From: Rhodopirellula europaea 6C
GTDB taxonomy: Bacteria > Planctomycetota > Planctomycetia > Pirellulales > Pirellulaceae
Assembly (NCBI RefSeq): GCF_000338295.1
Contig: NZ_ANMO01000120.1
Location: forward strand, 62,001-126,000
Direction: 5' to 3'
Length of the DNA stretch: 64,000 nt
Part shown: positions 15,310-59,312 of the stretch, in pieces
How positions within the stretch are numbered: the first letter of the stretch is position 1
How the letters are laid out: each line of letters begins with the position of its first letter
Notes under the pieces: model-generated
The model's input: the letters and a program-made list of their open reading frames with translations, nothing else
Databases searched by the model: none
What the model was told of the DNA's origin: nothing
Program-made: the position numbers and the translations under genes

Positions 15310-15315
15310 GATGAA

Positions 15316-16845: not shown

Positions 16846-17016
16846 GATGGCAAACGATTCGGGCAACGGATGATTTCGTGTCGATCGAAGTCCTTTTCGT
16901 CGAAAATAGTAGAAGCAATTCAAAAAGCGGTTCCCGGCCTCACGAGGCTAGTCGTAAACAAGGCCGGGAACCTTGCCGATCACGGTGACACACCGCGAGC
17001 GACTGGGGCACTCTCA

Positions 17017-17559: not shown

Positions 17560-17567
17560 TTTTTCTT

Positions 17568-17660
17568 AATTGGGAATGAGGAATTGGGAATGAGGAATGG
17601 AACGGGGGATAGGACGAAGTTTCCTGTCCCCCATTCCCGGTTCCCCATTTCTTAATGAGC
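17568..17660. repeat. Heptameric repeats forming an imperfect hairpin
   Basis: aattggg, aatgagg, aattggg, aatgagg and aatggaa run from 17568 to 17602. Inverse copies (cccccattcccggttcccc) at about 17627-17647 can pair with them around a short centre. Confidence 0.65.
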
Positions 17661-17996: not shown

Positions 17997-18127
17997 TGAC
18001 ATTCCTCCGTGGGAGTCTTCTCGAAACAAACAACCATCGTTTCGGCAACGCACCGAAACGGCAAACTAATTTGCCCATTGAAGCGGGCAATCACGAGGAA
18101 CCGTTCCTCGTACCAGTGTTTCATCTT

Positions 18128-21505: not shown

Positions 21506-21545
21506 TTTGATCCCTCAGTAGTTTTGGTTTGGCAAAGCGAACAAC

Positions 21546-23099: not shown

Positions 23100-23112
23100 G
23101 GGGAAACCCTGC

Positions 23113-23147
23113 AATGGGGAATGAGGAATTGGGAATGAGGAATGGAG
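23113..23147 (+). repeat. Heptameric degenerate repeat
   Basis: Five 7-mers: aatgggg, aatgagg, aattggg, aatgagg, aatggag. Confidence 0.7.
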
Positions 23148-23262
23148 AACTTGCAACGCGAGTGCGAGTTGCAATGCGCGCAGCGAGGTCCTCGATTCAT
23201 TCATTCAAAAGGATGATCGGGGTAAAAAGATGGAACGAGTTGAGTTCGAGAACGGTTTCCCT

Positions 23263-23292
23263 ATTCCCTATTTCTCATTCCCTACTTCCCCA
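23263..23292 (-). repeat. Heptameric repeat, inverse orientation
   Basis: On the minus strand ggaagta, gggaatg, agaaata, gggaata and gggaaac repeat the same motif inverted to 23113-23147, so the two tracts could pair across about 115 bp. Confidence 0.55.
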
Positions 23293-23294
23293 AC

Positions 23295-23849
23295 TCAAAT
23301 GATCCACGTGCAGAGAGAAGCACAGTGGGAGAGCGAGTCCGTCGCGACATTTACCGATCGCTGTTGCAACCGACGGGCCGCGAGCGAACTGACGAAACTC
23401 ATCATCGGATCGTGCTCGTAGCACACAAACGCAACCACAGGAGCGTCGATGATGAAGACGACGTCACTCGAAGGCACAAAGCTGCATTCTACTTCGCCGT
23501 GGCACCCCGGATGGTTTCCATCACAAGGCTGTGACTCGCAAGCACAACACGGAGCCACCAATTGGCTAACATTGTCGTACGCTTCGACCGTCTCGTCCTC
23601 GCCCGAGCAATCGTGGTCGTGACTACAACAATGGTCGGATTGGACACTTGGTAAATCGGTGCTCACACGAGCATGATCGCACCCGCCATGGCCATGGCTC
23701 CCACAAGCAGCAGCGTGATGCAGCGAACACCCGAAAATCAGGTGCAGCAGCAATGCGGCGACGGTGGTGAGACGACAAACGGCGGACACAAAAAGCCTTT
23801 CTATAGTGAGATTCCTGGTATTATCGGATCTTACAGCGAAAAGGTCCAT
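23295..23849 (-). CDS. Cys/His-rich exported protein with CTWII tail
   Basis: 184 residues, family not recognised. A hydrophobic segment (TVAALLLHLIFGCSL, about 29-43) follows a short basic N-terminus. The mature part has HH, CGSHGHGGCDHA, DHCCSHDHDC, CCACESQPCDGNHPGCHGEVEC and other Cys/His groups, and ends SLCTWII. It aligns along its length with the protein at 34321, including the leader (DLFAV versus DLFAL). It lies between the TolC-like gene and the adaptor gene, all on the same strand, so a metal-binding or sensing role for the export system is my inference. Confidence 0.65.
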   Translation of the reverse strand: MDLFAVRSDNTRNLTIERLFVSAVCRLTTVAALLLHLIFGCSLHHAAACGSHGHGGCDHARVSTDLPSVQSDHCCSHDHDCSGEDETVEAYDNVSQLVAPCCACESQPCDGNHPGCHGEVECSFVPSSDVVFIIDAPVVAFVCYEHDPMMSFVSSLAARRLQQRSVNVATDSLSHCASLCTWII

Positions 23850-23942
23850 ACCGATCAGGTGACGGCGGAAAATTTTCGCTGAACTTCCCAGACCTCCGGA
23901 TTAGCGAACGCATTCGCTCGTCGAAGCAGACGGGCCAACGGG

Positions 23943-25580
23943 CTACTGTTGACTGAACGTTAGGCCCCGTAGGCTGTCATCGCCGCTGTTGTCGACGACT
24001 GGGTCCAATGATCCCGTCAGGACATAGCCGTCAATGCGGGCACGGGCTTGGCCGAGCAATGCTTGGGCGGCGATGTATTGCAGGTTGGTCTCGAAGTACG
24101 TCCGCTGAGCGATCAGCACTTGCACATAGTTGGTTTCGCCAGCCTTATAGGCGATCTCCGACAGATCGAGCCCTTCTTGTGCGTTGGGCAGAATATCATT
24201 CGCATATTGATCGACGGCGGCCAGAGAGGCGTCAAAATCGCCGGCGGCGGTCGCTAACCGTGCCTTGATCGCGTTTTCAATCCGCTCGACTTCACGCGAC
24301 GCGCGAACATATTCTGCTCGGGCCGCAGAGATGTTCCCCTGGTTCTTGTTGAACACCGGGATCGGTGCACCAATCTGAAAATTGATCAAACCGTTGTCGG
24401 TTGCGTTGTCATAACCACTACCCAACGAGACATCCAGGTTGGGAATCGGCTGAACTTCGTGACGACAGATCAACGCTCTGGCCCGAGTCACTCGCGACTG
24501 GGCCGCTTGGTACTCGGGATTAGCAACGACAATGTTCGCCGCGACGCTATTCCAATCCATCGGCACTTCGTTTCGCGGCAACTCACCTTGCAGGTCGGTT
24601 GGTGCCATCTGGGGTGTTCCGGCGAATGCTACCAACTCACGCCAAGCGGCGTTAAAGCGGACTTTGGCTTGACGCAGTTGCAGGTCAATCTCGTTCTTCA
24701 GCACTTTGGCTTGCACGACATCCAGTTGTGACCCTTCCTCCGCTCGCTTCCGCAATTCAGCGAATTCAAGCCCCTGGTCCGATACTAATTGAAACTCTTG
24801 GATCAATTGCACGCGACGCTGTGCCGCCAAAGCGTCGTAGAATTTAACGCGAATATCTGTGGCAACTCGGTATTTCTGGGCTTCCAGATAAAACAGTTGA
24901 GCACGCATGGATTCATTCAACACGCTGCGATTGAGTGCCAACTTGTTGGCCGTGACGATTGTTTGTGAAATGAAAAACGTGTGCTGGTCGGTTCCCTGAT
25001 CGGCGAGTTGATTCGCTTGGTATCCGATGCTCGGATTGGCTCGCAGGCTCACTTGCGTGCGATATCCGGCCGCTTTCTGCGTGGTCGCAACCAACTCAGC
25101 AATGGTCGGGTTGTTCTGAAGGGCCAGCGACTCGAATTGCTCCAGCGTCATGCCGGTAGATTGGCCGAAATCTACAACCGGGCTGTCCAAAAAGATGGGT
25201 TCAGCCACTGTTGCCGTCCCGGAGTCTTCAAGCGACATCGCATCACGCAGAGACATCGGCGTGTCGTCCTCGTTGCTGTCGTCTCCTTCACCGTCCATGC
25301 TTTCGGTGTCGATTTCGGTATAAGCGACGGTTTGCACGCGGGGCTTTTGAGATGGAGAATGTGGTACCGGAGGCTGCAGCTCGCTGGTTGCAACTGCCAC
25401 TGCGGTCACATCGGTCGCTTGCCGCAAACTCGGCGTCGAAGCGACATGTTGCCCAAGAGTCTGACAGCCGGTCGTGAAACCCAATGCGGACAACAACAGC
25501 AGACGCCTAGCCCGCTTCGCCGTGGCAGAAATTGTCCTGCCGCGGGTTGTCTTGATACAGAATGGTCGTGTATTGGTCAC
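23943..25580 (-). CDS. TolC/CzcC-family outer-membrane efflux protein
   Basis: 545 residues. The start is a GTG at 25580 with AAGGAGG 8 nt upstream; the frame is open further but without a better site. The N-terminus has a likely lipoprotein signal ending in FTTGC. A low-complexity linker (to about 130) precedes two outer-membrane efflux repeats: LEQFESLALQNNPTIAEL opens the first, and the second runs from about 330 to 520 with GAPIPVFNKNQGNI. Such trimers form the outer-membrane duct for RND and ABC exporters. It is the only channel gene in the window, so it may serve several pumps. Confidence 0.9.
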   Translation of the reverse strand: MTNTRPFCIKTTRGRTISATAKRARRLLLLSALGFTTGCQTLGQHVASTPSLRQATDVTAVAVATSELQPPVPHSPSQKPRVQTVAYTEIDTESMDGEGDDSNEDDTPMSLRDAMSLEDSGTATVAEPIFLDSPVVDFGQSTGMTLEQFESLALQNNPTIAELVATTQKAAGYRTQVSLRANPSIGYQANQLADQGTDQHTFFISQTIVTANKLALNRSVLNESMRAQLFYLEAQKYRVATDIRVKFYDALAAQRRVQLIQEFQLVSDQGLEFAELRKRAEEGSQLDVVQAKVLKNEIDLQLRQAKVRFNAAWRELVAFAGTPQMAPTDLQGELPRNEVPMDWNSVAANIVVANPEYQAAQSRVTRARALICRHEVQPIPNLDVSLGSGYDNATDNGLINFQIGAPIPVFNKNQGNISAARAEYVRASREVERIENAIKARLATAAGDFDASLAAVDQYANDILPNAQEGLDLSEIAYKAGETNYVQVLIAQRTYFETNLQYIAAQALLGQARARIDGYVLTGSLDPVVDNSGDDSLRGLTFSQQ

Positions 25581-25815
25581 CGAGTATTCCTCCTTGAAAT
25601 AGATAAAACGACCAGCCTGCGGTACCCATCGGTTCCGCAACTACCGAATTTCAAGCAGAATCGTCCCAATCCGACATCGGACGCTATAACCAAGTACCGG
25701 TCATGAGGATTGCATCAGTCGCAAGACCGGATGGAGGGGCGCAGGACAGATTCTGTTCCAATCCCTTGCAATCGCCCAACAGCAAGCAGTCGGCGAACCG
25801 CTGCCGTCGACCGGC

Positions 25816-45641: not shown

Positions 45642-47417
45642 TTATCGAGTGAGAGAAGAATCCGCCGCGACGATGCGACGCAATCCAGCGAGACCGGTTG
45701 GTGGTTCGCTTTGCCAGGGAACCAGTGCAACACGAGTCGCCAGCGTCGATTTGACTTCCTCGATGAACGGCAGCTCGTGATGTTGCCGCCGACGCAACGT
45801 CGGGTCCGATACCCCAAGCGGAACCAGACTCTGATTGATGACCCAGGCGAACGGTTCGATCTCCGCACGACGCAAATCTTGCTGCAACTTCGCCGCTTCA
45901 TGGACCGGTGTTGCTTCGGGCAAGGTGACGACCAGAACGCGAGTCAGCGCCGGGTCACGCAAACGCGGCAACAGGTTTTCAACGGACTCGGGCATCCCGC
46001 TCGCTTGCCGAGTTACTTCGCGATGATACGCGAGCGCCGAATCGAGCAACAAAATCGTGTGCCCGGTCGGGGCGGTGTCCAAAACAACGAAGCGGTTGGT
46101 GCCTTCCGAGACGGCCTTCGCGAAAGCACGGAAGACCGCGATCTCTTCGGTACATGGCGAACGTAGATCCTCTTCCAAAAGAGCCTTGCCTTCCGCATCC
46201 AGATCGCCGCCGGCGGTTCGCATGACTTCCGCGGTGTATGCGGCCGTTTCCTCGGCGGGGTCGATGCGACCAACCGAAAGCCCCGTCAATTCTTCCGCCG
46301 CGATGGTCGTTGCAAGGTGGGCGGCGGGATCGGTCGTCGACAAGTGCACGTCGAAACCACACTCGGCCAAGGCAACCGCGACGGCCGCCGCGACCGTGGT
46401 CTTGCCGACACCGCCTTTTCCCATCGCCAGAATCACGCCATGTCCCGTCGCCGCCAGTTCGTCGATCAACGAACCGAGCCCGTCAGGATATGAATCAATC
46501 GACGCCAAATCATCGACACCACAATCGCCGATCGACGACGGACGACCCACTTCGCGAAGAGAACCCACACCCATCAAACCGTTCCATGTTAGCGGTACCA
46601 TCGTCCGCTCGAGCTTGGCTATCGAATCGGGTATTTCGGCAATCGCTTGATCGCCGCGCTGCTGCATCGCTTTTGCGATTTTGTCGTCCTCGGAATCGGT
46701 CGTGAACACTCCGTTGACGATCAGGTGTTGATTGTTTACGCCAAGGTTCTGCAGTTCGTCGCTCGTTCGTGCCGCCTCGCGAAACGCCGATGTTTCCGGC
46801 CGAGTGACCAGGACCAACGTCGTCAAACTCGCATCCGCCAACGCATCGACGGTCTGTTTGTAGATCAACGTCTGTGCTTGCAAGCCAGCCAGCGGTCCGA
46901 GACAAGACGTGCCGGTCGTGTTGTTTTCGATGTATCCCGACCAAGCCGACGGCAATGTCAGCAGACGCAACGTGTGGCCGGTTGGCGCGGTGTCGAAGAT
47001 GACGTGGTCGAAGTCGGTGGTAGATTGTTTGTCACCCAGCAACTTCGCAAACTCATCGAACGCCGCAATCTCCAGCGTGCAAGAACCCGAGAACTGTTCT
47101 TCTATGCTTCGCACCGCCGCGTCAGGCAACACTCCGCGATAAGGGCCGACCATTCGTTCGCGATACTGTGTGGCTGCGGCTTCGGGGTCAAGGTTTAACG
47201 CAAACAAGTTCGGCACCGATTCGATCGGCGTCGGTTCACTGCCAAGAGTCGTCCCAAGAACCTCATCCAGATTGGATGCCGGGTCGGTCGAAACCAATAA
47301 CACCCGCAATCCTCGATCCGCCAACTGAACCGCTGAAGCGCACGCCATGGACGTTTTGCCAACGCCACCTTTGCCGGTGAAGAACAAGTTCCTCGTTGGC
47401 GTTTCTAAGAATTTCAT
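45642..47417 (-). CDS. arsA: Arsenite-transporting ATPase ArsA
   Basis: 591 residues from the ATG at 47417; a GTG four codons upstream is possible. Two homologous halves each have a P-loop: GKGGVGKT at 15-22 and again at about 333-340, with DTAPTGHTLRLL-type switch II sequences in both. Cys in SGSCTLEIAAF and SPCTEEIAVF correspond to the metalloid-binding Cys113 and Cys422 of E. coli ArsA. It energises arsenite export. Normally it docks on ArsB, whereas here the pump is Acr3; ArsA-Acr3 pairs are known in other bacteria. arsD lies 46 bp upstream, in keeping with ArsD delivering As(III) to ArsA. Confidence 0.95.
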   Translation of the reverse strand: MKFLETPTRNLFFTGKGGVGKTSMACASAVQLADRGLRVLLVSTDPASNLDEVLGTTLGSEPTPIESVPNLFALNLDPEAAATQYRERMVGPYRGVLPDAAVRSIEEQFSGSCTLEIAAFDEFAKLLGDKQSTTDFDHVIFDTAPTGHTLRLLTLPSAWSGYIENNTTGTSCLGPLAGLQAQTLIYKQTVDALADASLTTLVLVTRPETSAFREAARTSDELQNLGVNNQHLIVNGVFTTDSEDDKIAKAMQQRGDQAIAEIPDSIAKLERTMVPLTWNGLMGVGSLREVGRPSSIGDCGVDDLASIDSYPDGLGSLIDELAATGHGVILAMGKGGVGKTTVAAAVAVALAECGFDVHLSTTDPAAHLATTIAAEELTGLSVGRIDPAEETAAYTAEVMRTAGGDLDAEGKALLEEDLRSPCTEEIAVFRAFAKAVSEGTNRFVVLDTAPTGHTILLLDSALAYHREVTRQASGMPESVENLLPRLRDPALTRVLVVTLPEATPVHEAAKLQQDLRRAEIEPFAWVINQSLVPLGVSDPTLRRRQHHELPFIEEVKSTLATRVALVPWQSEPPTGLAGLRRIVAADSSLTR

Positions 47418-47463
47418 CGCAAGTCTCACTGTGTGTCAACGAATGGAGCGTCTACAAATCGAA

Positions 47464-47838
47464 TCAGCAGCAACCTGTGTCGCCGCCACAGCATCCCGAG
47501 TCTGACGCCACCGGCAGCGTCGCTTTGGGTTTGACCGACGTGCCCGTCCACATCGCCAAATTTTCACGCGAAGGGTACTCTCTACGACTGACCACACGAT
47601 CGTCGACGATCACCAACGGCAGGCATTCGACGCCTTCGTCAGTAAGCATCTTTTGCACCGTCGCGTTCTTGACGAACTCGGTCGGGTCTTGAGCCAAGTT
47701 GAAGCGAACGACGTCGTGGCCTTGCGCTTTCAGCCAATCGAGATCAGCGGAAAACTTTGGCAAAGCGGGATCGACTTGCGGTCCGCAAACACCTGTCGAG
47801 CAGCACATAGCTTTGTCGTAAATTTGAACTTTGGTCAT
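47464..47838 (-). CDS. arsD: Arsenite metallochaperone ArsD
   Basis: 124 residues from the ATG at 47838 (MTKVQIYDKAMCC), with CGGAG 9 nt upstream. The metalloid site Cys12-Cys13-Cys18 (AMCCSTGVCGP) is present, and the C-terminus carries two vicinal Cys pairs (GCCGGDTGCC). It hands As(III) or Sb(III) to ArsA and can act as a weak repressor. The thioredoxin-like fold region reads DLDWLKAQGHDVVRFNLAQDP. It lies between a small Cys-rich ORF and arsA. Confidence 0.95.
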   Translation of the reverse strand: MTKVQIYDKAMCCSTGVCGPQVDPALPKFSADLDWLKAQGHDVVRFNLAQDPTEFVKNATVQKMLTDEGVECLPLVIVDDRVVSRREYPSRENLAMWTGTSVKPKATLPVASDSGCCGGDTGCC

Positions 47839-47863
47839 TTCGATTTCTCCGAATGGAAGAGGC

Positions 47864-48112
47864 TTAATAGTTGGTTGAGACAGCGGTTTCGAGTGCGATC
47901 CTTGCCATGCAGAGGCGGTAGCAACTTTCAAACTCGGGGCACTCCCGGCAATCGTCCCACTGCGGAACGTCCTTCTCGATCTGTGGACGGGCACGCATCA
48001 TTCCGGCTGGTGCGTCGATACGCAGCGAAAACACCTTTCCTTGATGCTCGCCTACCTGAATACGATTCGGGAAAATCGTTCCGAAGCAATCTTTGTGTTC
48101 GGTGTTGTTCAT
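47864..48112 (-). CDS. Small Cys-motif protein in the ars operon
   Basis: 82 residues with a good Shine-Dalgarno (TTAGGAGAG, 8 nt). No signal peptide or membrane helix, so cytoplasmic. The N-terminal half is beta-like (GTIFPNRIQVGEHQGKVFSLRID). The C-terminal half carries DDCRECPEFESCYRLCMAR (about 53-71), four Cys that could bind As(III), Zn or an Fe-S centre. I do not know the family. It lies 11 bp after acr3 and 25 bp before arsD, so it is part of the operon, and a metalloid-related role is inferred from that alone. Confidence 0.75.
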   Translation of the reverse strand: MNNTEHKDCFGTIFPNRIQVGEHQGKVFSLRIDAPAGMMRARPQIEKDVPQWDDCRECPEFESCYRLCMARIALETAVSTNY

Positions 48113-48123
48113 CAGAAACTCTC

Positions 48124-49356
48124 CTAATTAGCTACCAAATCCGGTTTTCTCGATTCACTTTCGTCGGCAGTCTCAGCGGGAAACCAATCCTTTGTTCGTA
48201 CGCAGAAGTTGACCAAGCCCAACATTAGCGGCACCTCGATCAACACTCCGACGACGGTCGCCAGCGCCGCACCCGACGACAATCCGTACAACATCGTGGC
48301 CGTTGCGATCGCGACTTCAAAATGGTTCGACGCGCCGATCATGGCTGTGGGAGCGGCGGATTCGTAAGTGAACCCCATTGCTTTGCTGATGCCGTAACCG
48401 AGTGCAAAGATCACCAGCGTTTGAATCGTCAATGGAATCGCGATCCACAAAATGGTCAGCGGGTTTTTGACAATGGTTTCACCTTTGAATGAAAACAGCA
48501 GCACAAGTGTTGCCAGCAGCGCGGTGATCGTGATGGGCGTCAGGAAATGCAAGAACTTGTCGCGAAACCAAACTTCGCCTTTGGTGGCAATCAGCCATTT
48601 GCGAGACACGTAGCCGGCCACCAGAGGCAACGCGACATAGACGCCGATCGAAAACAAGAGTGCTTGCCAAGGAACGGGAAGCTGGCCGACGCCAAGCAGA
48701 AATCCCCCCAAGACACCGTACAGAACCAGCATCGTCAGCGAATTGATGGCGACCATGACCAGCGTGTGGCCGTCGTTGCCCTTCGCCAAGAATCCCCACA
48801 CCAAAACCATTGCGGTGCAAGGAGCGATGCCGAGCAGGATGCAGCCCGCCAAGTAACTTCGCCAAAGTGGGACTTGCAGCATCTTTACGCCTTCAACCAA
48901 TACCACTTCGCCAGCACCGTAGGATGCTCCGACTTCGAGATTGCTGCCCAGCGGCGCTTTTACATAGTCAACCGCATCGGGACCGATGAAGCCCAGAAAC
49001 AATGTGCCGAGGAAGAAGCTTGCGATCGCGTACATCGTGAACGGCTTGATCGCCCAGTTGAGAAACAGCGTTAACCCAACAGGCTTGATCGACTTGCCCG
49101 CCTTCACCACTTCGCCAAAGTCGATCTTGACCATGATCGGGTACATCATGAAGAACAAGCAAATCGCGATGGGGATCGAGATCACCGGAGCGTCGTTCAC
49201 GTGAATCGCCATGCCATCGAGCGACTTGGCAACGCCGGGGGCGATCTTACCGAGCAGGATTCCGGCGACGATGCAAAGCCCGACCCAGACGGTCAGGTAG
49301 CGTTCAAAAAAGCCGATGCCCTTCTCTTCGGTCGGGCAGGTCTCGGGTTGGTTCAA
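48124..49356 (-). CDS. acr3: Arsenite efflux transporter Acr3
   Basis: About 410 residues, ten membrane helices. It exports arsenite. The conserved Cys of Acr3 is in [12 protein letters not shown], and later [27 protein letters not shown] matches the family. No ATG lies near the N-terminus. I chose a TTG at 49356 with GGAG 8 nt upstream; another TTG at 49383 would also be in frame but directly abuts the putative operator. It follows arsR, and an ArsR-like site lies in the gap between them. Confidence 0.92.
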
Positions 49357-49389
49357 TTCGATGTCTCCGATGCTATTTCTCAAAATCGT

Positions 49390-49409
49390 CTATCGCCGCT
49401 AAACGATAG
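49390..49409. promoter_or_regulatory. Putative ArsR operator before acr3
   Basis: CTATCG (49390-49395) and CGATAG (49404-49409), 8 nt apart. The right arm and flank (CTAAACGATAG) resemble the arsR upstream site (TTAACGATAG). Confidence 0.5.
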
Positions 49410-49431
49410 CGGGCGTCAAAAAAACACTCCG

Positions 49432-49758
49432 TCACAATCCAGCGACGAAGTCTTTGAGCCGTTCAAGCCGGTCAGGGTTGATGCAGTAGCAAACCTTCGG
49501 CCCGTCAACTTCGCCCTGAATCAGCCCCGACTCTTTCAGAATCTTCAAGTGCTGGGATACGGTCGATTGTGCCAACGGCAACTGATCGACGATCTCGCCG
49601 CAAACGCAGGCTTCACGACCGATCAGCAACCGAACGATTTGCACCCGTGCCGGATGGGCAATCGCCCAAGCGAGCTTGGCGAAATCGTCGGCCGTCGGAT
49701 CCGCCTTGAGTTTCACCGGGGTCGAGTCGCAACGTTTTTGGGTGGATTTCTTTGCCAT
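49432..49758 (-). CDS. arsR: ArsR-family metalloregulator
   Basis: 108 residues, winged helix. The recognition region LPLAQSTVSQHLKILKESGLI is typical. Metalloid-sensing Cys candidates are CVCGE (about 49-53), which matches the ELCVC motif of As(III) sensors, plus a pair in KVCYCIN. The basic N-terminus is short. ArsR represses its own operon and releases DNA on binding As(III). Inverted repeats with GATAG arms lie both upstream of this gene and in the gap before acr3. It is the only classical metal regulator in the window. Confidence 0.93.
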   Translation of the reverse strand: MAKKSTQKRCDSTPVKLKADPTADDFAKLAWAIAHPARVQIVRLLIGREACVCGEIVDQLPLAQSTVSQHLKILKESGLIQGEVDGPKVCYCINPDRLERLKDFVAGL

Positions 49759-49772
49759 CGGATTACTTTATC

Positions 49773-49796
49773 GCCTATCTACGATTAACGATAGGC
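49773..49796. promoter_or_regulatory. Putative ArsR operator before arsR
   Basis: Perfect 7-bp inverted repeat GCCTATC (49773-49779) and GATAGGC (49790-49796), spacing 10, 15 bp upstream of the arsR ATG. Confidence 0.6.
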
Positions 49797-49891
49797 AGGG
49801 TGAAGCTTCGCGTCAAGTGAAGAGGGCAGTCGCAAACTCCGGGCAACCAGGAATCGCGAATGAAATCCTCGCTGTTTCAAAGACGCAACTG

Positions 49892-52039
49892 CTAACTGCG
49901 CAGAAGCCGTAATCCGTTGGCGATCACCAACAGGGACGCTCCCATGTCGGCGGCGATGGCGGCCCACAGCGATGCCACGCCCATCAAGGTCAGCACCACG
50001 AACAACGCTTTGAGCGCCAGTGAGAACCAGATGTTTTGTCGAATGATCGACAATGTTCGTCGCGAGTGCCGGATCAACCAAGGCAGCTTCGATAAGTCAT
50101 CCGACATCAGCGCGATGTCCGCCGTTTCGATCGCCGCATCGCTGCCTGCCGCGCCCATCGCGAGTCCCAACGACGCGCGAGCAAGCGCGGGTGCATCGTT
50201 GACGCCATCGCCGATCATCGCAACATGCTCGTAACGCGCAACGAGATCCTCGACAGCCGCGACTTTGTCTTCGGGCAACAACTCCGCGTGAACTTCGTCG
50301 ATACCGGCTTCTTTGCCGATCGCCTTGGCCGTGCCTGCGTTGTCGCCCGTTAGCATCACGATTTGTTTGATACCAACTGCGTGCAGTGCCTTGATCGCGT
50401 CGCGGGTCTCTTCGCGGATCGCATCAGCCAGCGTGATGAAGCCGCAAACGTGTTCGTCATTGCCGATTACCACGACGGTTCGCCCGGCGTCCTGCATCGC
50501 CCCAAGCTGCTGATGAACTTCCGGGGTTTCCTGTCCGCGTTGTTCCAGATAGCGATGCGAACCCAGCCAATAAGTTTTCCCGTCCATGACTCCCGTCGCT
50601 CCTTTGCCTTGGATCGTCTCGAACGATTCGGCTGGCGGCATCGTCATGCCACGCTTCTTGATTTCATCAACGATGGCTCGCGCTAGCGGGTGATTGCTGT
50701 TGAGTTCGAGCGCTCCGGCCCGCGATAGTAATTCTTCCTCGTCGTGCCCGTTCATCGGAACGACGTCAATCACTTCGGGAGCCCCCTTGGTCAGCGTCCC
50801 AGTCTTGTCCATCGCGATCGCGACGAGTTTTCCCGGAAGTTCAATGAACACGCCCCCTTTGACCAAAACTCCTTGGCGAGCCGCAGCGGCCAACGCAGCA
50901 ACAACCGAGACGGGCGTTGAGATGACCAGAGCACACGGGCAAGCGATGACCAATAACACGAGCGACCGATAGATCCAAACCGACCAAGGCTGTCCGAGTA
51001 GCAAAGTCGGAATCAGAAGCATCAAGAGGGCAACTGCCATCACCACCGGGGTGTAGATCGCGGCAAATTTCTCGACCCACTTCTCCGACGGTGCCCGCTT
51101 TGATCCGGCATCGCCGACCATCTGAATGATGCGGGCCAGCGTTGTGTCCTCCGCCGCTTTGGTGCTCCGCATTTCCAGCAAACCGTCGCCGTTGATCGTG
51201 CCTGCGAACAACTCGTCGCCGGCTTGCTTCTCCACCGGCACGCTTTCACCGGTGATCGGTGCTTGATTGACATCGCTGTTGCCAACGACGACTTCGCCAT
51301 CAAGAGGAATCTTCTCGCCGGGACGAACCACGAGCGTCGATCCGACCGGAACATCAGCGGGCGGAACGTCACGAACTTCACCGGATTCGTCGCGCAGGTG
51401 AGCGACCGGCGGCGTCAGGTCCATCAGCGAAGCGATCGCCCGTCTCGCCCGACCGATGCTCCATGATTCCAATAGAAGCGACAACGAGAACAGGAATGCG
51501 ACCGCCGCCCCCTCAAACCATTCGCCGATCGCGATCGCACCGACCACCGCGATCGACATCAACAAATTCATGTCGGGTCGCAATGTAATCAGCGACCGCC
51601 AAGCTTTCGGCAGCACCAAATACAGACCGGCCAAAATACCAACGAGATAGCAAGCAATCGCGGGCGTCGCGACAGCATCATCGAAGCCTCCCGAGAGCAG
51701 ATGAATCACTAGCCCGATCCCACCGGACACACCGCTGATCGCGGTCATGATCGCGCGTTGATGGTTTGACCAGAACGATTGTTCGTCGGATGACTGCCGA
51801 GCGTTCTCCCATGTCTCGGCCTCCAACCCCGTCCGCTCGATCGCGGCGACCACGTCACCGGCGGTAACGTCAACGCCATCGAGATCAACCGTCAGGCGGG
51901 CGTTGAGCAGGTCGAAACCCAACCGCTCATCACCGCCGAGCAGCGGCACCAATTCACGTTTGATCAGCGAGACTTCCTCGGCACAGTCCATGCCGTGAAT
52001 CTTTAGTTGCATGTTGTTTTCATCACTCATCGTTGTCAT
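49892..52039 (-). CDS. ZntA/CadA-like P1B-2 metal-exporting ATPase
   Basis: 715 residues. The N-terminal HMA-type domain has GMDCAEEVSLIK, the DCxxEE variant seen in ZntA-like pumps, with one Cys plus acidic ligands. The TM metal site is CPC (ACPCALVIS), the phosphorylation motif DKTGTLTKG has Asp411, and GDGVNDAPAL is the hinge. TM8 has DMGASLLVIANGLRLL, whose Asp is typical of P1B-2. Expected substrates are Zn, Cd and Pb. Its ATG overlaps the thioredoxin-like gene stop as ATGA, so the two are coupled. It is distinct in subtype from the SPC pump at 3915. Confidence 0.94.
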   Translation of the reverse strand: MTTMSDENNMQLKIHGMDCAEEVSLIKRELVPLLGGDERLGFDLLNARLTVDLDGVDVTAGDVVAAIERTGLEAETWENARQSSDEQSFWSNHQRAIMTAISGVSGGIGLVIHLLSGGFDDAVATPAIACYLVGILAGLYLVLPKAWRSLITLRPDMNLLMSIAVVGAIAIGEWFEGAAVAFLFSLSLLLESWSIGRARRAIASLMDLTPPVAHLRDESGEVRDVPPADVPVGSTLVVRPGEKIPLDGEVVVGNSDVNQAPITGESVPVEKQAGDELFAGTINGDGLLEMRSTKAAEDTTLARIIQMVGDAGSKRAPSEKWVEKFAAIYTPVVMAVALLMLLIPTLLLGQPWSVWIYRSLVLLVIACPCALVISTPVSVVAALAAAARQGVLVKGGVFIELPGKLVAIAMDKTGTLTKGAPEVIDVVPMNGHDEEELLSRAGALELNSNHPLARAIVDEIKKRGMTMPPAESFETIQGKGATGVMDGKTYWLGSHRYLEQRGQETPEVHQQLGAMQDAGRTVVVIGNDEHVCGFITLADAIREETRDAIKALHAVGIKQIVMLTGDNAGTAKAIGKEAGIDEVHAELLPEDKVAAVEDLVARYEHVAMIGDGVNDAPALARASLGLAMGAAGSDAAIETADIALMSDDLSKLPWLIRHSRRTLSIIRQNIWFSLALKALFVVLTLMGVASLWAAIAADMGASLLVIANGLRLLRS

Positions 52040-52491
52040 CCTCGTCGATTTGAACTTGCTAAATGACTCGATAAAGCTTCCAACAGCTCTTCACGGCTTT
52101 GCGTTCCAATCAGTCTTTGGACCTCAATTCCATCAACGAACACAAGCAGCATTGGGTATTTGTCGATGTTGTATTTCTCTTTGATGAACGGGTTTTGTTC
52201 GATATTCAGTTCTGCAACTTTGACTCTATCTGACAACTCCGATGCAAGTTCACGAATCGTCGGCTTCATGGCGATGCAGGGCTGGCACCAAGGCGCCCAC
52301 ATGTCGACCAAAACAGGAAGCTCGCTGTCGAGGACCTCGCTTTGAAAAGTCTCGTCGCTCAATTGAATGGGATCAGCACCATTCAAGGATGCCGTGTCGC
52401 TCACCGGTGACGAATCGCGACCGCATCCGGCGGCGAGCAGAACAAGAACGAAAAGAGTCCCCGTGGAGTAATGATGATTCGTAAATGGCAT
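52036..52491 (-). CDS. Thioredoxin-fold lipoprotein
   Basis: 151 residues from the ATG at 52491 (MPFTNHH); the frame is open to 52554. The signal ends in LLAAGC, so it is probably lipid-anchored outside the cytoplasm. A thioredoxin domain follows, with the active site WAPWCQPC (CxPC) and a cis-Pro in DKYPMLLVF. It would reduce or exchange disulfides in the periplasm. It is translationally coupled to the ZntA-like pump (ATGA) and follows an exported HMA protein, so keeping the Cys of metal-binding proteins reduced is a plausible role. Confidence 0.88.
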   Translation of the reverse strand: MPFTNHHYSTGTLFVLVLLAAGCGRDSSPVSDTASLNGADPIQLSDETFQSEVLDSELPVLVDMWAPWCQPCIAMKPTIRELASELSDRVKVAELNIEQNPFIKEKYNIDKYPMLLVFVDGIEVQRLIGTQSREELLEALSSHLASSNRRG

Positions 52492-52585
52492 GAGGCGGTA
52501 TTCGCTTCGGACAATGATTCGCCAACGACCGCCGATGCGAGGGATTCCTCGCATCGACGGCAGATGAACAATCAGTCGCTGTCGA

Positions 52586-53149: not shown

Positions 53150-53398
53150 CTATCGCCGTGGATGGGTCGAGGTTTCAACTTTCGCCAAGGGCACGGCTGA
53201 ATCCTCACTGTTCTCTGTCGGGGAAACGTTCAAACAATCGCCCTCGCAGCAGGCTTGCGAAATGCAAGCCGTCCGGTGGGGCACAGAACATCCACACATG
53301 CAGCCGGGCTGAACGAGCAGAAACGTAGCGAACGACATGGTGGTGACGCGTCGCAATCCCCGACTCCAGGCGTTTCTTTTTGGCGACTGCCTTGACAT
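53150..53398 (-). CDS. Small Cys-rich exported protein (tentative)
   Basis: 82 residues if it starts at the ATG 2 nt after the stop of the WCxEH lipoprotein gene. A basic N-terminus (KRNAWSRGLRRV) and a short hydrophobic stretch (MSFATFLLV) are followed by CMCGCS, ACISQACCEGDC, then a polar tail. Tight spacing and a terminator directly after it support a real gene, but the hydrophobic segment is short. It is not a recognised family and lacks the aromatic-aliphatic tail of the other Cys-rich proteins here. Confidence 0.5.
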   Translation of the reverse strand: MSRQSPKRNAWSRGLRRVTTMSFATFLLVQPGCMCGCSVPHRTACISQACCEGDCLNVSPTENSEDSAVPLAKVETSTHPRR

Positions 53399-53400
53399 GC

Positions 53401-53763
53401 TTACTCTGTTGGTTGGGGTGGTTTGTGACCCGTCTTGGCTTCGTAAGTCGCTGCAAACTTGTCGAAACGTTTGGGGCTGCAAATGAAACACTGCGACTCG
53501 GGGCGGTCGTGTTCATCACACCAGTCGCCATCCTCTTTGAACTTCGACACCAGCGTTTTGTCACACAGGGCACAATCGCCTTCGGGAACACCATGCTCGA
53601 CGCACCACCAACCGCCGTGGCTGTGATCCACATTGGTTGCCGCGACCGGTTCGGAACTACCGGGTTCAGTGACGACATCGCTCTTGCTGCAACCGGCAAA
53701 CACCACGGCGGCAGCGGCCAATCCGGCCAGCGATAGCCCACGAAAGTCTTTCATCCAATTCAT
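53401..53763 (-). CDS. Lipoprotein with two WCxEHxxPExxCxxC motifs
   Basis: 120 residues from the ATG at 53763. The signal ends in FAGC (Cys25). After a Ser/Thr/Pro linker there are two tandem copies of one motif: WCVEHGVPEGDCALC (Cys54, His57, Cys64, Cys67) and WCDEHDRPESQCFIC (Cys82, His85, Cys92, Cys95). Each gives three Cys and one His, a likely metal site. The same motif is in the N-terminal part of the RND adaptor encoded two genes upstream (57052). So this looks like a dedicated metal carrier for that pump. The pump gene stop is 39 bp upstream. Confidence 0.8.
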   Translation of the reverse strand: MNWMKDFRGLSLAGLAAAAVVFAGCSKSDVVTEPGSSEPVAATNVDHSHGGWWCVEHGVPEGDCALCDKTLVSKFKEDGDWCDEHDRPESQCFICSPKRFDKFAATYEAKTGHKPPQPTE

Positions 53764-53802
53764 TTTCACAATCAATCTCCTTCGGCTTGGCCGAATCAAG
53801 GG

Positions 53803-56800
53803 TTAGACCGTCAGCCGTTCGGGCAACTTCTCTGATTCAAGAACTTCGTTTGAATCCGATGACTGCTCCGACTCTGGGTCGGTCGGGTCGTTGGGTTCGA
53901 GTTGATGACCATCATCATCTCCACCATCTCCGTCAAACTTTTCAACCGGCAGGTTGAAGACCACATAGAGCACTCGCAAAACGAGCAAGCTCATAATCAT
54001 TGCGCTACACACGCCGCCGATCACAACCGTTGCCAACGGTCGCTGCACCTCGGCACCCATGCCGGTACTGAACGCCATCGGCACGAAACCAAGGCTGGCG
54101 ACGAGCGTCGTCATTAGGATCGGACGTAATCGCGTCATCGCGGCTTCTTCGACAGCTTCATCGAGCGAACGACCACGCCGTCGCAGTTGCCGGATCGTTG
54201 AAACCAGCAACATGTCGTCCAGCACCGCAACGCCTGACAAAGCGATGAATCCAACGGCAGCCGAAATGGAAAACGGCATGTCGCGAACCCATAGTGCCAG
54301 CACTCCCCCGATCCAAGCGAACGGAACGCCGGTGAACACTCGTAACGAGTCCACCCAGTTGCGATAGGTCGCGTAGAGCAACGACAGGATCATCAACAAC
54401 GCGATGGGAACGACGATCATCAACCGCAGTTGGGCACGTTGCAGGTTTTCAAATTGGCCACCCCATTCGACACGGTAGCGTCCCGGTGGCAGTTGGACCT
54501 TTTCGTCAATTGTGCGTTGGGCTTCAGCGACAAAACTACCCAGATCGCGTCCACGGACATTCGCTTCGATCGTGATTCGCCGTTGATACCAATCACGCTT
54601 GATTGTGTTCGGCCCCTCGACCTTCTCGATCGTGGCTAAGCGAGACAAAGGGATGCGTTCACCCGAAGGCGTCGCCACCAAGATTTGACGAATCGCGTCG
54701 GGATTGGCTCTCGCCTTTTCCGGCAAGCGAATGATCAGCGGGAAACGCAATTGCCCTTCGTACACTTCGCCGACGTGATGGCTGCCTAACGAACGCACAA
54801 GATTCATGATCGTGCTGGCCGACACCCCGTAGCGTGCGATCTCGTCTTGTTTGACACGAATCTGCAAAACGGGTTGGCCAGACACCTGTTCGACCTTGAC
54901 GTCTTCGCTGCCGGGAATGGCATTGAGCGCCCGTTCGATCTCGCTCGCCTTCTCGACCATCAGATCGAGGTCATCGCCATAGAGGATTGCCGCGACATCC
55001 GACCGAACGCCCGAAATCATTTCATTCATTCGCATCTCAATCGGCTGTGACATCGCCAATCGAGGGCCGGGCAAGTCTCGAAGTTCTTCCTGAACCTTGA
55101 TGACCAATTCTTCCTGCGTCTCCGCCCTCGTCCATTGTTCGCGTGGATGCAGCGTCAGAAACAAGTCGGTCAGTTCAGTTCCCATCGGATCGGTCGCGAC
55201 TTCCGCCGTACCGATGCGGCTCCAGACCTGCGATACCTCATCAGGAAACTTATCCAGCAGAACCTGCTCCATTTGCGTGTTGTATCGCATGGATTCTTCC
55301 AGCGTTGTCCCCGCCAGACGCACGACGTTGATCGTGATCGCACCTTCGGAAAGTCGCGGTACGAACTCGCTGCCAAGGTTCGGTGCAACCAAACCAAACA
55401 CGCTGACCAACAACAATAGTGCTGCACCAATCACAAAGGTCTTATGGTGCATCGTGAACCGAAGGACCGGTGCATAGAGTCGCTTGAGCACACGGATCAA
55501 CAGCGGCTCTTTCTCTTGAACGTTCTTGGGCAAGAACAGACTGGCCAAGACCGGCATCAGGGTGAGTGATAGGACCATCGAACCGGCCAGCGCCATGATG
55601 ACAGTGATCGCCATCGGTCGAAACAGTTTGCCTTCGATCCCTTCGAGCGTCAAAATCGGCAGATAGACGATCATGATGATTAATTCGCCAAACATCGTCG
55701 GCTTGCGAACCTCGATGGCCGCCTCGCGAATGATCTCCAGTCGACTTTTGCCGTCCCGGTTGTGTGCCAAATGCCGCACGCAGTTCTCGATCATCACGAC
55801 GCTGCTATCGACGACCAACCCAAAGTCGATCGCACCCAGGCTCAGCAGACTGGCGGCGATGCCGAACTTCAGCATCCCCGAAAATGCAAACAGCATCGAC
55901 AACGGAATCGCTGCCGCGACGATCAAACCCGCTCGCAGATTCCCCAGGAAAATGAACAGCACTGCGATTACCAGCAGGCCACCTTCAAAGAGATTCTTTT
56001 GAACGGTGTGAATCACGTGGTCGATCAATTCGGTGCGGTCGTAAACCGTTTGAATCCGAACGCCTGCTGGCAACGTTTCTTGAATGCTGGCGATCTTTTC
56101 CTTGATGGACCAAGTCACGTCGTGACTGTTCTCGCCCATCAGCATGAACCCCAGCCCCAAGACCGCCTCCCCTCGTCCGTTCGCCGTGACCGCCCCGCGT
56201 CGGATTTCGTGTCCGATTTCCACCTCCGCTACGTCACGAATGCGAACTGGAACGCCCTCTTTGGCGGTGATGACAACATCCTTGATCTCTTCCAGATTGA
56301 CCGTTCGACCAACGCCGTGGACCAACAACATTTCGCTGCCGTCGGTAACCGTTCCGCCGCCGACGTTCTCGTTGTTCGCTTCGATGGCTTCACTAACTTG
56401 CTCGAACGTCAGTCCATACTTCACCAACAAATCCGGTTGCAGTCGAACCTGATATTGCTTCTCGTACCCACCCCAACTGTTCACTTCGGCCACACCTCGA
56501 ACCGATCGCAATTGTGGCTTGACCACCCAGTCGTGAATCGTTCGCAACTCGGTCATGCGTTTGACACGCTCGGCCTGAGAGGCTTCCGAGAAGTCAACAC
56601 CGTCGTAAACCAGAACGTAGTGAAAAACTTCGCCCAAACCGGTCGAGACCGGACCCATCTGCGGTCGGCTGATACCGTCGGGTAGCTCGACTGTGGATAA
56701 CCGTTCGTTAATCAACTGACGAGCAAAATAGATGTCGATGCCATCATCAAAAATGACCACGACCTGTGACAGACCGAACTTGGAGATCGAACGTAGTTCG

Positions 56801-57039
56801 TGGAGTCCCGGCAATCCGCTGATTGCCTGCTCGACGGGAAAGGTGATCTGCCGTTCGATTTCCTCAGACGCCAATGACGGGGCGACCGTGTTGATCTGAA
56901 TTTGAACCGGAGTGGTGTCCGGGAATGCGTCGATATCGAGCCGCTGGAGCGAGAGTACTCCAACGCCAGCGAACAACAACGCGGCCAAGATGACCAAGGC
57001 GCGGTGCTTGAGCGAGAAATCAATGAGGTAGTTAAGCAT
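53803..57039 (-). CDS. CzcA-like heavy-metal RND efflux pump
   Basis: 1078 residues with the HME-RND layout. The TM4 signature D405FGLVVDSSVVMIEN has Asp405, Asp411 and Glu418, the divalent-cation type, with Ser-Ser where the pump at 12160 has Gly-Ser. It ends in an acidic, Asp/Ser/Glu-rich tail of about 55 residues. Expected cargo is Zn, Co, Ni or Cd. The adaptor gene is 12 bp upstream and no channel gene is in this operon. Confidence 0.93.
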   Translation of the reverse strand: MLNYLIDFSLKHRALVILAALLFAGVGVLSLQRLDIDAFPDTTPVQIQINTVAPSLASEEIERQITFPVEQAISGLPGLHELRSISKFGLSQVVVIFDDGIDIYFARQLINERLSTVELPDGISRPQMGPVSTGLGEVFHYVLVYDGVDFSEASQAERVKRMTELRTIHDWVVKPQLRSVRGVAEVNSWGGYEKQYQVRLQPDLLVKYGLTFEQVSEAIEANNENVGGGTVTDGSEMLLVHGVGRTVNLEEIKDVVITAKEGVPVRIRDVAEVEIGHEIRRGAVTANGRGEAVLGLGFMLMGENSHDVTWSIKEKIASIQETLPAGVRIQTVYDRTELIDHVIHTVQKNLFEGGLLVIAVLFIFLGNLRAGLIVAAAIPLSMLFAFSGMLKFGIAASLLSLGAIDFGLVVDSSVVMIENCVRHLAHNRDGKSRLEIIREAAIEVRKPTMFGELIIMIVYLPILTLEGIEGKLFRPMAITVIMALAGSMVLSLTLMPVLASLFLPKNVQEKEPLLIRVLKRLYAPVLRFTMHHKTFVIGAALLLLVSVFGLVAPNLGSEFVPRLSEGAITINVVRLAGTTLEESMRYNTQMEQVLLDKFPDEVSQVWSRIGTAEVATDPMGTELTDLFLTLHPREQWTRAETQEELVIKVQEELRDLPGPRLAMSQPIEMRMNEMISGVRSDVAAILYGDDLDLMVEKASEIERALNAIPGSEDVKVEQVSGQPVLQIRVKQDEIARYGVSASTIMNLVRSLGSHHVGEVYEGQLRFPLIIRLPEKARANPDAIRQILVATPSGERIPLSRLATIEKVEGPNTIKRDWYQRRITIEANVRGRDLGSFVAEAQRTIDEKVQLPPGRYRVEWGGQFENLQRAQLRLMIVVPIALLMILSLLYATYRNWVDSLRVFTGVPFAWIGGVLALWVRDMPFSISAAVGFIALSGVAVLDDMLLVSTIRQLRRRGRSLDEAVEEAAMTRLRPILMTTLVASLGFVPMAFSTGMGAEVQRPLATVVIGGVCSAMIMSLLVLRVLYVVFNLPVEKFDGDGGDDDGHQLEPNDPTDPESEQSSDSNEVLESEKLPERLTV

Positions 57040-57051
57040 CCGTGCAATCCT

Positions 57052-58743
57052 TTATTCGGCGACGCAGTCGCAGCCTGCACCAAGGTTGTTCTTGAGAAGT
57101 TGTGCCCGCAGCACGTCGCTGCCGTCGGTCGCGATCACTTCGCCCGGTAACACACCCGAAATGATTTCTGTCACATCGCCATTGACCGCTCCCAATCGAA
57201 CCGAGCGGACATGGAAAACCTTGTAGCTGTCGGGGCTGGCGAAGTAGTCCTTGTCGCGGACGAAGACGACTTGGCAACAACCTTCCCAGTGAGAGGAGCC
57301 GGTTGGGATCACGATCGCTTCGGACTCTTGTCGCAGGATCACTTCGCCCATCCCAAAGGTTTCGTTGCGAAGACGTCCGTCCGAGTTATCCAACACGGCT
57401 CGAACCTGCAACATCCGCGTCGTGTTGTCTGCCGAAGTGCTAATCCAATCCAAGGTTCCGCTGACGACTTCGCGGCTCCCGTCGGCGCGAAACTCGACAG
57501 GCTGACCGATCGCCAACTGCTCGGAGCTTTCCAGCGGAATGTTCAACGTCAACCACATTTGTCGAACGTCGGCGACCTGAAAAAGAATCCGCGTCGGATC
57601 AACGACCTCGCCCGCGGAAACACTCCGCTGAACCACGACACCTTGGATCGGCGATCGAATCGGCAGCAGGTTTGACGTGACGGTTCGACTGTTCAACTGC
57701 GCCCGAAGTTCGTCCGGAATCCCCAGCAATCGCAAGCGATCGAGCACCTGTTGTTCCGACAGGCCCTGCAACTCACCGACTTCTGCGGGCAGTCCCAAAT
57801 TCCGCAGCGATTGCTCCGCCGCCAAGACGTCCGCCTGAGCTTTCGCCAACGCCGCGTTCGCATCCAAGATTCGGGAACCGGCAATCGCGGCGCGAGCGCT
57901 GCTCAATCGCGAAACGTTTTGCTGTTGAAGTTTTTGTTCCGCCAACGCCCGCAGTAAGTCCGTTTTGATGTCACCAACTCCCGCCGCGTCAATCACCGCC
58001 AGAACTTCACCAACCTCCACCGGATCGCCCACATTCTTGGTGACCTTCCAAACGCTTCCCGGCACCCGCGACGCCATGCTCGCCTGTCGCGTTGGATCGT
58101 AGATAATTTCTCCGTTACCAACGATCGACTCGGTGATCGGGGCACGCTCGACCAGTTCAACATCGACGCCAGCCTGTTGAACCGACTCGATCGAAGCGAA
58201 CTGAATTCGTGACTGGTAGACCTCGCAAGCACTGTTGTTTTCTTTGCGAGGCGCAATCGCCAACGCACGAGCGGCACGTTCCAAATCTTCGACCGGAACC
58301 GTTGGCGTTTCCTTGAGCTGAGCAACATCGGGATGGTCGAGCGTGCAATTGTGAACACCATGAACGCTGCACCAACCGTAGTCAGGCCCCTTGGCCATCA
58401 ACGTCGGATCACACTCGACGCAAATGGACTCCGGAACCGCATGTTCTTCACACCAATCATCGACAACCGGCTCGACATCACCGGTCAACGCGGCGAACTT
58501 AGGAATCCGCCAATCGTTGTGATGCCCATACCAAAACACGGCAGCGAACCCAGCCAATACGAGTGTCGGCCCGATACTTCCTAGCACCAACGAGATGCCG
58601 CGGCGAATGGGACCACGAGGTTTTGATTCGGCGTCCTGAGTAATTTTAGTTTCGGCGGCGGGAACCTTGTGTCCGTTGACGGACGGCTTCACGGGTTCTT
58701 GCCGAGGACTTTTTCTCGGCGCATCGGCAATCGGATGACTCAT
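57052..58743 (-). CDS. RND adaptor with N-terminal Cys/His metal motif
   Basis: 563 residues from the ATG at 58743. After a cytoplasmic tail of about 45 residues there is one membrane helix (ISLVLGSIGPTLVLAGFAAVFWY), then a metal-binding segment at about 97-135: WCEEHAVPESICVEC (Cys98, His101, Cys108, Cys111) and a partial second copy WCSVHGVHNC. The barrel-sandwich, hairpin (about 230-360) and beta-barrel domains of CzcB/CusB follow, and the protein ends CDCVAE. The fused motif matches the one in the lipoprotein at 53401, which suggests metal hand-over within one periplasmic complex. It is 12 bp before the pump gene. Confidence 0.88.
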   Translation of the reverse strand: MSHPIADAPRKSPRQEPVKPSVNGHKVPAAETKITQDAESKPRGPIRRGISLVLGSIGPTLVLAGFAAVFWYGHHNDWRIPKFAALTGDVEPVVDDWCEEHAVPESICVECDPTLMAKGPDYGWCSVHGVHNCTLDHPDVAQLKETPTVPVEDLERAARALAIAPRKENNSACEVYQSRIQFASIESVQQAGVDVELVERAPITESIVGNGEIIYDPTRQASMASRVPGSVWKVTKNVGDPVEVGEVLAVIDAAGVGDIKTDLLRALAEQKLQQQNVSRLSSARAAIAGSRILDANAALAKAQADVLAAEQSLRNLGLPAEVGELQGLSEQQVLDRLRLLGIPDELRAQLNSRTVTSNLLPIRSPIQGVVVQRSVSAGEVVDPTRILFQVADVRQMWLTLNIPLESSEQLAIGQPVEFRADGSREVVSGTLDWISTSADNTTRMLQVRAVLDNSDGRLRNETFGMGEVILRQESEAIVIPTGSSHWEGCCQVVFVRDKDYFASPDSYKVFHVRSVRLGAVNGDVTEIISGVLPGEVIATDGSDVLRAQLLKNNLGAGCDCVAE

Positions 58744-58913: not shown

Positions 58914-59312
58914 TTAGAGCAGCCAAGAAGAGTGCGCAACGCGCACCGAGCGACCCGTCAAGAGATCCAGTGGACGCGGCTGATGCTCGAATCGAGAAAC
59001 CAAGACCTCTGAGAGATTAAGTGTTTCCAAACTCAGCGGAGCTAGCTCCACGGCGAGCTGAAAATCAACAATCGTCCGATGGTTCAGCTCAGGCGTGACC
59101 TGACACTCGCATCCCGTTTCGCAGGGGCAAGGTGAATCGGCCGGTGGAACGCCATCGTCATCGCAAGGCGAGTTCTGTTCACCAGAACAGCCGCAAGAAT
59201 GACGCACAACTGCCACATCGCTTGCAAAACGATCGTCAAACGCACCCAGGCAAAACACCGGGCACGCGACAACTCGCAATGCGATAAACGATAATAAAAG
59301 CAGCCGAAACAT
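58914..59312 (-). CDS. Cys-rich exported protein with SSWLL tail
   Basis: 132 residues. A signal-like start (MFRLLLLSFIALRVVACPVFC) is followed by SCGCSGEQNSPCDDD and CPCETGCECQV (about 39-70), a beta-like stretch (TIVDFQLAVELAPLSLETLNL), and the end RVAHSSWLL. It aligns with the protein at 40726. It is the first gene of an RND operon (171 bp before the adaptor). A palindrome (AGGCTA-N4-TAGCCT) lies 47 bp upstream. Function unknown; I infer an exported metal binder or sensor. Confidence 0.7.
   Translation of the reverse strand: MFRLLLLSFIALRVVACPVFCLGAFDDRFASDVAVVRHSCGCSGEQNSPCDDDGVPPADSPCPCETGCECQVTPELNHRTIVDFQLAVELAPLSLETLNLSEVLVSRFEHQPRPLDLLTGRSVRVAHSSWLL

Follow-up and report, generated by a model that had tools for sequence, protein, structure and literature searches.

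A repeated unit of cysteine and histidine ligands is carried both by the periplasmic adaptor of a resistance-nodulation-division (RND) heavy-metal efflux system and by a small lipoprotein of the same locus, within a 64,000-nucleotide stretch of Rhodopirellula europaea 6C DNA (contig NZ_ANMO01000120.1, positions 62,001 to 126,000; hereafter the window). Many environmental bacteria possess such an adaptor, often with an adjoining small lipoprotein built from the same unit, which is probably a means of catching metal and delivering it to the pump. An earlier note on this DNA had reported the shared motif and proposed both a link to RND systems and a role in metal handling; the observation and the link are right, and metal handling stands as a putative role. 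The features of the locus, numbered by window position, are:

57052..58743, minus strand: RND periplasmic adaptor (CzcB/CusB type) with the putative metal module; ATG start at 58743; from translation and family models.
58519-58578, minus strand: N-terminal hydrophobic anchor of the adaptor, recognized by eye.
58411..58455, minus strand: adaptor unit 1, WCEEHAVPESICVEC, with C3H ligands; from pattern match and alignment.
58330..58374, minus strand: adaptor unit 2, WCSVHGVHNCTLDHP, of form C-x2-H-x4-C-x3-H; from translation and alignment of 13 adaptors.
57262..57291, minus strand: vicinal cysteines of the adaptor body, HWEGCCQVVF (GCC site); from translation.
57055..57084, minus strand: C-terminal tail of the adaptor, LGAGCDCVAE (GAGCDC); from translation.
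53803..57039, minus strand: CusA/CzcA-family RND pump; TIGR00914, 1244.3 bits (cut-off 701.45).
55783-55827, minus strand: motif of pump transmembrane helix 4 (TM4), DFGLVVDSSVVMIEN, containing DFGLVVD, which fits DFGxxxD.
53401..53769, minus strand: lipoprotein with two units; start at GTG 53769 or ATG 53763.
53689-53703, minus strand: lipobox of the lipoprotein, VFAGC; from translation.
53563..53607, minus strand: lipoprotein unit 1, WCVEHGVPEGDCALC; from pattern match.
53479..53523, minus strand: lipoprotein unit 2, WCDEHDRPESQCFIC; from pattern match.

When W-C-x-E-H-x2-P-E-x2-C-x2-C was searched as a DNA pattern allowing up to three mismatches, the window gave three matches, each with 0 mismatches, while 100 dinucleotide shuffles gave none. 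The three lie where the earlier note had placed them, two in the lipoprotein (53563-53607 and 53479-53523) and one in the adaptor (58411-58455). The lipoprotein bears two copies of WC-x2-H-x6-C-x2-C, and the adaptor bears one together with a variant second copy (58330-58374). Calling the latter a diverged copy was misleading: it has not decayed, as 13/13 aligned adaptors share the four residues C, H, C and H of this copy. The numbering Cys98, His101, Cys108 and Cys111 is correct provided that the adaptor starts at ATG 58743, and the lipoprotein ends at 53401 as had been given, with its start now refined to the two codons listed. The adaptor scored 128.4 bits against HlyD_D23 (PF16576; cut-off 30), identifying a barrel-sandwich/HlyD body, and 118.7 bits against RND_mfp (TIGR01730; cut-off 94.9), identifying an RND adaptor. 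We take DFGxxxD in TM4 to be the mark of a CusA/CzcA pump of the divalent-metal type. The GCC site (57262-57291) and the GAGCDC tail (57055-57084) of the adaptor were absent from the earlier note.

Alignment defined the unit closely. All four ligands of both adaptor units are invariant in 13 adaptors, the window's included, and the eight ligands of 16 lipoproteins, again with that of the window, are invariant save for one Cys that is Tyr in L015. Among 24 diverse two-unit rows the invariant columns are exactly the eight ligands, C H C C twice. The consensus is WCxEHGVPESxCxxC[NH]PxL; across 469 distinct units the first Cys follows a Trp in 82%, and Pro (+6), Glu (+7) and Leu (+17) are present in 86%, 90% and 61%, respectively; the gap from His to the second Cys is six residues (H-x6-C) in 527/535 unit matches. 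Successive units stand 28 residues apart in 60/115 pairs and 24 to 27 apart in 47/115. The number of units per adaptor ranges from 1 to 7 when counted strictly and reaches 9, in L103, on a looser count; a separate protein encoded upstream of adaptor and pump at L223:5794-6717 has eight (7 strict), arranged as two near-identical four-unit blocks. A module common to adaptor and lipoprotein is thereby confirmed. Constant exchange of modules between a lipoprotein and its own adaptor was mostly rejected, since modules of small proteins are nearer to those of other small proteins; the exceptions are L079, L086 and one of two pairs in L215. In L079 (5977-8256, 12751-13116) and L086 (7515-7970) the small-protein units are nearer to the adaptor of their own operon than to other small proteins, which suggests, from these sequences, recent copying between the two genes of each locus; the units of the L079 small protein are nearer still to the adaptor of L087.

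The unit is uncatalogued, with no Pfam or PDB family covering it. No Pfam model exceeded its cut-off across the module in 11 module proteins scanned (L223 reached E 0.0012 and 19.3 bits against DUF7607, below the cut-off of 27), and the lipoprotein matched no Pfam family at E<=1, including that of CusF-type chaperones. NCBIfam, run on the two window proteins only, gave 12.6 bits for the lipoprotein against lipo_YgdI_YgdR, below the cut-off of 42. The earlier note had described the unit as differing in sequence from the heavy-metal-binding domain HMBD (PF19335), and this held: HMBD was not matched at E<=1 in the window lipoprotein and adaptor nor at E<=10 in nine other module proteins. Homology to HMBD is unsupported, as hhalign gave a probability of 7.1% over 13 columns (E 0.005 for a single comparison), at the C-x2-C end only. 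Searching a profile against solved structures in the PDB returned 7 matches up to E 10, the best at a chance-like E of 0.28. An AlphaFold model built from 32 rows (mean pLDDT 77.6, pTM 0.55) predicts that each unit is followed by a helix and that strands are short or reduced to bridges. In the comparison aimed at known zinc folds such as the zinc knuckle and treble clef, VIA-align placed the model on none of 3 chains at Z>=2. In the open-licence PMC literature, as represented by titles and abstract openings, such a module was not found described.

To follow the module through other genomes, several searches were combined. In its own genome the lipoprotein query returned the lipoprotein (E 3e-93), the adaptor (E 2e-4) and three weaker matches (E 0.04 to 0.33) confined to the signal part (query residues 16-74). 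Within the family 13/60 genomes matched, own included, through lipoproteins, adaptor frames, of which one is truncated at the end of its contig, and one broken frame; a domain-only profile (A3) matched 59/294 genomes of the phylum, own included. Regions were read in 57/58 other phylum genomes with a match (G293 was left out) and for the family matches. With the pattern DWCx[EGK]Hx[LVM]PE, a scan of 84,980 species genomes yielded 417 stretches, of which 405 are relatives. Two sets of loci, sharing some genomes, were then used for counting. Set 1 comprised 80 loci (L064-L143), less L122 and L142, which have no unit by the strict expression (78 used); the former encodes an adaptor whose unit is a variant, and the latter is a weak match of the own-genome search. 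Set 2 was the best 80 stretches among the 405 relatives (79 loci, L150-L228).

Unit-bearing frames in set 1 were 74 adaptors, 43 small frames and 0 others. Set 2 gave 75 adaptors and 37 small frames, plus L166 and L214, where a long frame overlaps genes of these kinds; a few of the small frames are stray (e.g. an antisense frame in L070) or pieces of cut adaptors. An RND pump is present in 144/157 loci read, 11 of the remainder being cut short or short and 2 having room yet none. In set 1 no pump is visible in 5/78 loci, all five cut by contig ends, nor in 8/79 of set 2, six of them short or cut. A same-strand pump lies next door to 131/149 module adaptors, at <=150 nt for 120 of these, and TM4 DFGxxxD was matched in 107/131 of the neighbouring pumps. 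The remaining 18/149 adaptors are those of L182 and L193 and others that, by eye, stand at contig ends or beside pump frames excluded by the criterion. The link to heavy-metal efflux RND genes is supported, and unrelated cytoplasmic zinc proteins, the carriers that would have spoken against it, were not seen as main carriers in the loci read.

Carriers in set 2 belong for the most part to Planctomycetota, which is also the phylum of the window: over the query, locus L083 of a genome from that phylum shows no difference from L150, a record of a Planctomycetota metagenome-assembled genome (MAG). Besides these, the module is carried by the Myxococcota Sorangium cellulosum So0157-2 and Polyangium sp. 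y55x31 and by MAGs of Myxococcota and Deltaproteobacteria, with single MAGs of Ignavibacterium, Nevskiales, one alphaproteobacterium and one gammaproteobacterium, for which binning errors are possible. Two planctomycete plasmids bear the module. On the mobilizable pK2D_1 (E 4e-26) the adaptor is annotated czcB and its neighbours are czcC, czcA, a two-unit 'hypothetical protein', cadA, trxA and czcD; on pPL62-1, a weak match (E 0.6), an adaptor with two units and a GAGCC tail adjoins a CusA/CzcA pump. A Magnetospirillum protein with an EAL domain was a further weak match (E 0.6) of the plasmid search.

Module adaptors differ from their neighbours at further Cys sites. Among adaptors complete at the 3′ end in the same loci (133 with the module, 34 without), a G-x-G-C tail was found in 122/133 module adaptors versus 1/34 others, an HxH tail in 0/133 versus 26/34, and GCC in the adaptor body in 74/133 versus 1/34. 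For the sole non-module adaptor with GxGC, that of L100, the three units are encoded by a separate gene immediately before it. Thinning left the GxGC tail in 47/54 with the module versus 1/23 without. A quick tree, which carried a long-branch warning and was built from 88 adaptor bodies stripped of units and tails, requires 5 changes of the module label and 10 of the tail label. The window itself holds two further CusA/CzcA-type RND systems (12160-25640), whose adaptors (15316-16923, 21546-23204) contain stretches rich in His, end in HxH and lack Cys units.

One pair of loci points to a variant of the ligand set. L085:7439-9553 (plus strand, genome G257) and L123:1-2049 (minus strand, genome G231), representing two species of one planctomycete genus by one genome each, encode six-unit RND adaptors in which unit 3 reads WC..H..PESQCPL and then TGA exactly at the position of the fourth ligand Cys. 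Past the TGA the frame continues ungapped through a 16-residue linker, three more units and the adaptor body, and by eye the part after the TGA lacks both a membrane anchor and a signal. Identity between the two adaptors is 72% across 152 residues, and third positions differ in 39/66 codons before the TGA, 11/16 in the linker and 46/69 after it, so that the TGA has outlived extensive change. In all loci scanned, TGA at a ligand position was otherwise found in one chance-like frame (L140), TAA and TAG at such positions numbered 0 and 0, and 507 units were all-Cys.

The published limits for a bacterial selenocysteine insertion sequence (bSECIS), as they appear in a passage of PMC13188914, are a loop of 3-9, a stem of 4-16, G within the first two loop bases, a spacing of 16-37 and a minimum free energy <=-7.5. 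A predicted hairpin starting 15 nt past the TGA, with six base pairs common to L085 and L123, falls within them: a 7 bp stem with loop GUU at -7.5 kcal/mol in L085, exactly at the limit, a 7 bp stem with loop AGUUC at -8.7 kcal/mol in L123, and a spacing of 21-22 nt. The hairpin persists in folds of 36-44 nt; over a 55-nt stretch L085 folds differently and no better than shuffles (z -0.11), and L123 gives z -2.12. Rfam reported nothing. SelB exceeded its cut-off in G257 and G231, as in 4/6 other genomes searched, and a tRNA-Sec with anticodon tca was found in G257 and none over the cut-off in G231 (77% complete). This adaptor gene is present in only 2/12 genomes of the order (G257, G231). Frame, hairpin and SelB together suggest that the in-frame TGA encodes selenocysteine (Sec), the use of which has precedent in planctomycetes according to a passage in PMC4807772. 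We consider it fairly likely that in this genus the six-unit adaptor is a selenoprotein, with Sec as the fourth ligand of unit 3 in a seleno-thiol metal site. For some metal resistance proteins, for example the Cu/Zn efflux transporter SO_0444 in PMC13188914, a role of Sec as metal ligand has likewise been proposed; the main text of that review does not contain the words RND, HlyD, adaptor or membrane fusion. If true, the assignment would place Sec as a ligand inside a transport complex, an RND efflux adaptor.

Further genes around the locus are:

53150..53398, minus strand: 82-residue Cys-rich probable lipoprotein, LLVQPGCMCGCSVPHRTACISQACCEGDC, directly downstream of the lipoprotein; from translation.
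58914..59312, minus strand: 132-residue Cys-rich, probably secreted protein upstream of the adaptor; from translation.
52036..52554, minus strand: thioredoxin-like lipoprotein, a probable partner, named by eye.
49892..52039, minus strand: P1B-type ATPase, a probable partner, which by eye we take to be ZntA/CadA-like.

Relatives of these neighbours were counted in 165 loci (at E<=1e-3 for the ATPase and the thioredoxin). The 132-residue protein, which had no Pfam or NCBIfam match, has relatives in 8/165 loci, each just upstream of the module adaptor; the 82-residue protein, with CC and CxC motifs, has partial relatives in 3/165 (L137, L064, L065). Relatives of the thioredoxin-like lipoprotein occur in 15/165 loci and those of the ATPase in 37/165. 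Window 45642-52554 contains an ArsA-like ATPase (PF02374), ArsD- and Acr3-like genes recognized by eye, the P1B-type ATPase and the thioredoxin, and judged by this gene content it is a metal-resistance island. We infer Zn, Cd and Pb as the metals of the module system because the pump carries DFGxxxD, in the meaning assumed above, and because P1B-type ATPases are its neighbours, including cadA on pK2D_1.

According to the model that we favour with moderate confidence, the module is a repeated thiol counterpart of CusF/CusB serving a divalent Zn/Cd/Pb RND exporter. The two units of the lipoprotein would catch Zn/Cd/Pb-type ions in the periplasm, and the ion would be exchanged from them onto the like units at the adaptor N-terminus, the presence of the same module on donor and acceptor permitting shared-ligand exchange. 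The ion would then move along the adaptor by way of its thiols, GCC in the body and GxGC at the C-terminus, into the CzcA-type pump, while the periplasmic thioredoxin-like lipoprotein may hold the thiols reduced. We infer metal binding and passing-on from the invariant ligands, the RND linkage and the analogy with CusF/CusB, and the direction and route of transfer are likewise putative. Several observations weigh against this relay. The module adaptors of L182 and L193 have several kb of room downstream and no detectable RND pump, and 4/131 neighbouring pumps have a different TM4 motif, with 20/131 not matched by the expression (three of these 20 are pieces of 324-393 residues, and L195 and L207 do have DFGxxxD). 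Where no separate small protein is seen, as in many loci, the donor may be dispensable. Some of the 37 ATPase matches may be of another kind, P-type ATPases being a large family. Foldseek with the predicted model gave 2 matches up to E 10 and none at E<=0.001. Finally, independent coupling of module and Cys tail was not borne out: beside the 5 module changes there are only 3 independent module/tail pairs on supported branches (5 on all), too few to test, and thus the association is mostly shared descent.

The units might instead act as a sponge, buffering toxic metal in the periplasm, with adaptor arrays keeping metal near the pump without directed transfer. The wide range of copy number and the separate eight-unit protein of L223 would suit such a role; however, the module is on or beside an RND adaptor in the loci read and accompanies specific Cys sites in adaptor body and tail, and we regard this explanation as unlikely. 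Less probable still is that the units are small structural zinc folds that keep oligomers or partners assembled, with the exported metal binding at other sites. The arrangement C-x2-H/C-x2-C is common in structural zinc sites, and the predicted strands or bridges with a helix after each unit agree with a fold of this kind, but copy number varies, heavy-metal genes adjoin, and lipobox and anchor indicate an extracytoplasmic location. It is also conceivable, although very improbable, that the units form a redox module, with thiols that cycle with the adjacent thioredoxin and serve in sensing or regulation instead of carrying metal. The 15 loci with thioredoxin-like relatives and the trxA annotation on pK2D_1 are consistent with redox cycling, whereas disulfide chemistry would not need the invariant His, and 150/165 loci lack a relative of this thioredoxin at E<=1e-3, although these loci are short and one may lie outside them.

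The results define an unnamed, repeatable putative metal module in heavy-metal efflux adaptors; the hand-over of metal from adaptor to RND pump becomes testable with small peptides, and unit copy number offers a natural dial. Efflux adaptors would follow a two-part code, Cys module with Cys tail versus His-rich tails, and those named merely 'CzcB' or 'efflux adaptor' could be sorted by module. CzcB/ZneB-type adaptors with His-rich ends have the same adaptor body as module adaptors, but they have HxH tails and no units where module adaptors have GxGC tails and units.

The HMBD, which is found on RND adaptors, has the signature YTCPMHPE...CPxCGMDL and resembles the unit in its ligand order, C-x2-H ... 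C-x2-C, in a Leu four residues past the last Cys, and in repeating inside a single frame, as seen in the window's own genome. It differs in its loop of ~10 residues versus 6, whereas the unit has Trp before the first Cys and neither CPMHP nor CGM. Closest in arrangement is CusCBAF, in which, as set out in passages of the respective papers, CusF passes Cu/Ag to the Met-bearing N-terminus of CusB (PMC6235853) and copper travels via CusB to CusA (PMC8277102). Both systems combine a small periplasmic donor with a metal-binding adaptor N-terminus, binding here being ascribed by analogy. In contrast to the Met ligands for Cu(I)/Ag(I) described there for CusF/CusB (PMC6235853), the module system presents Cys and His, and its lipoprotein, which has no CusF family match, bears the same repeated module as the adaptor that it would serve.

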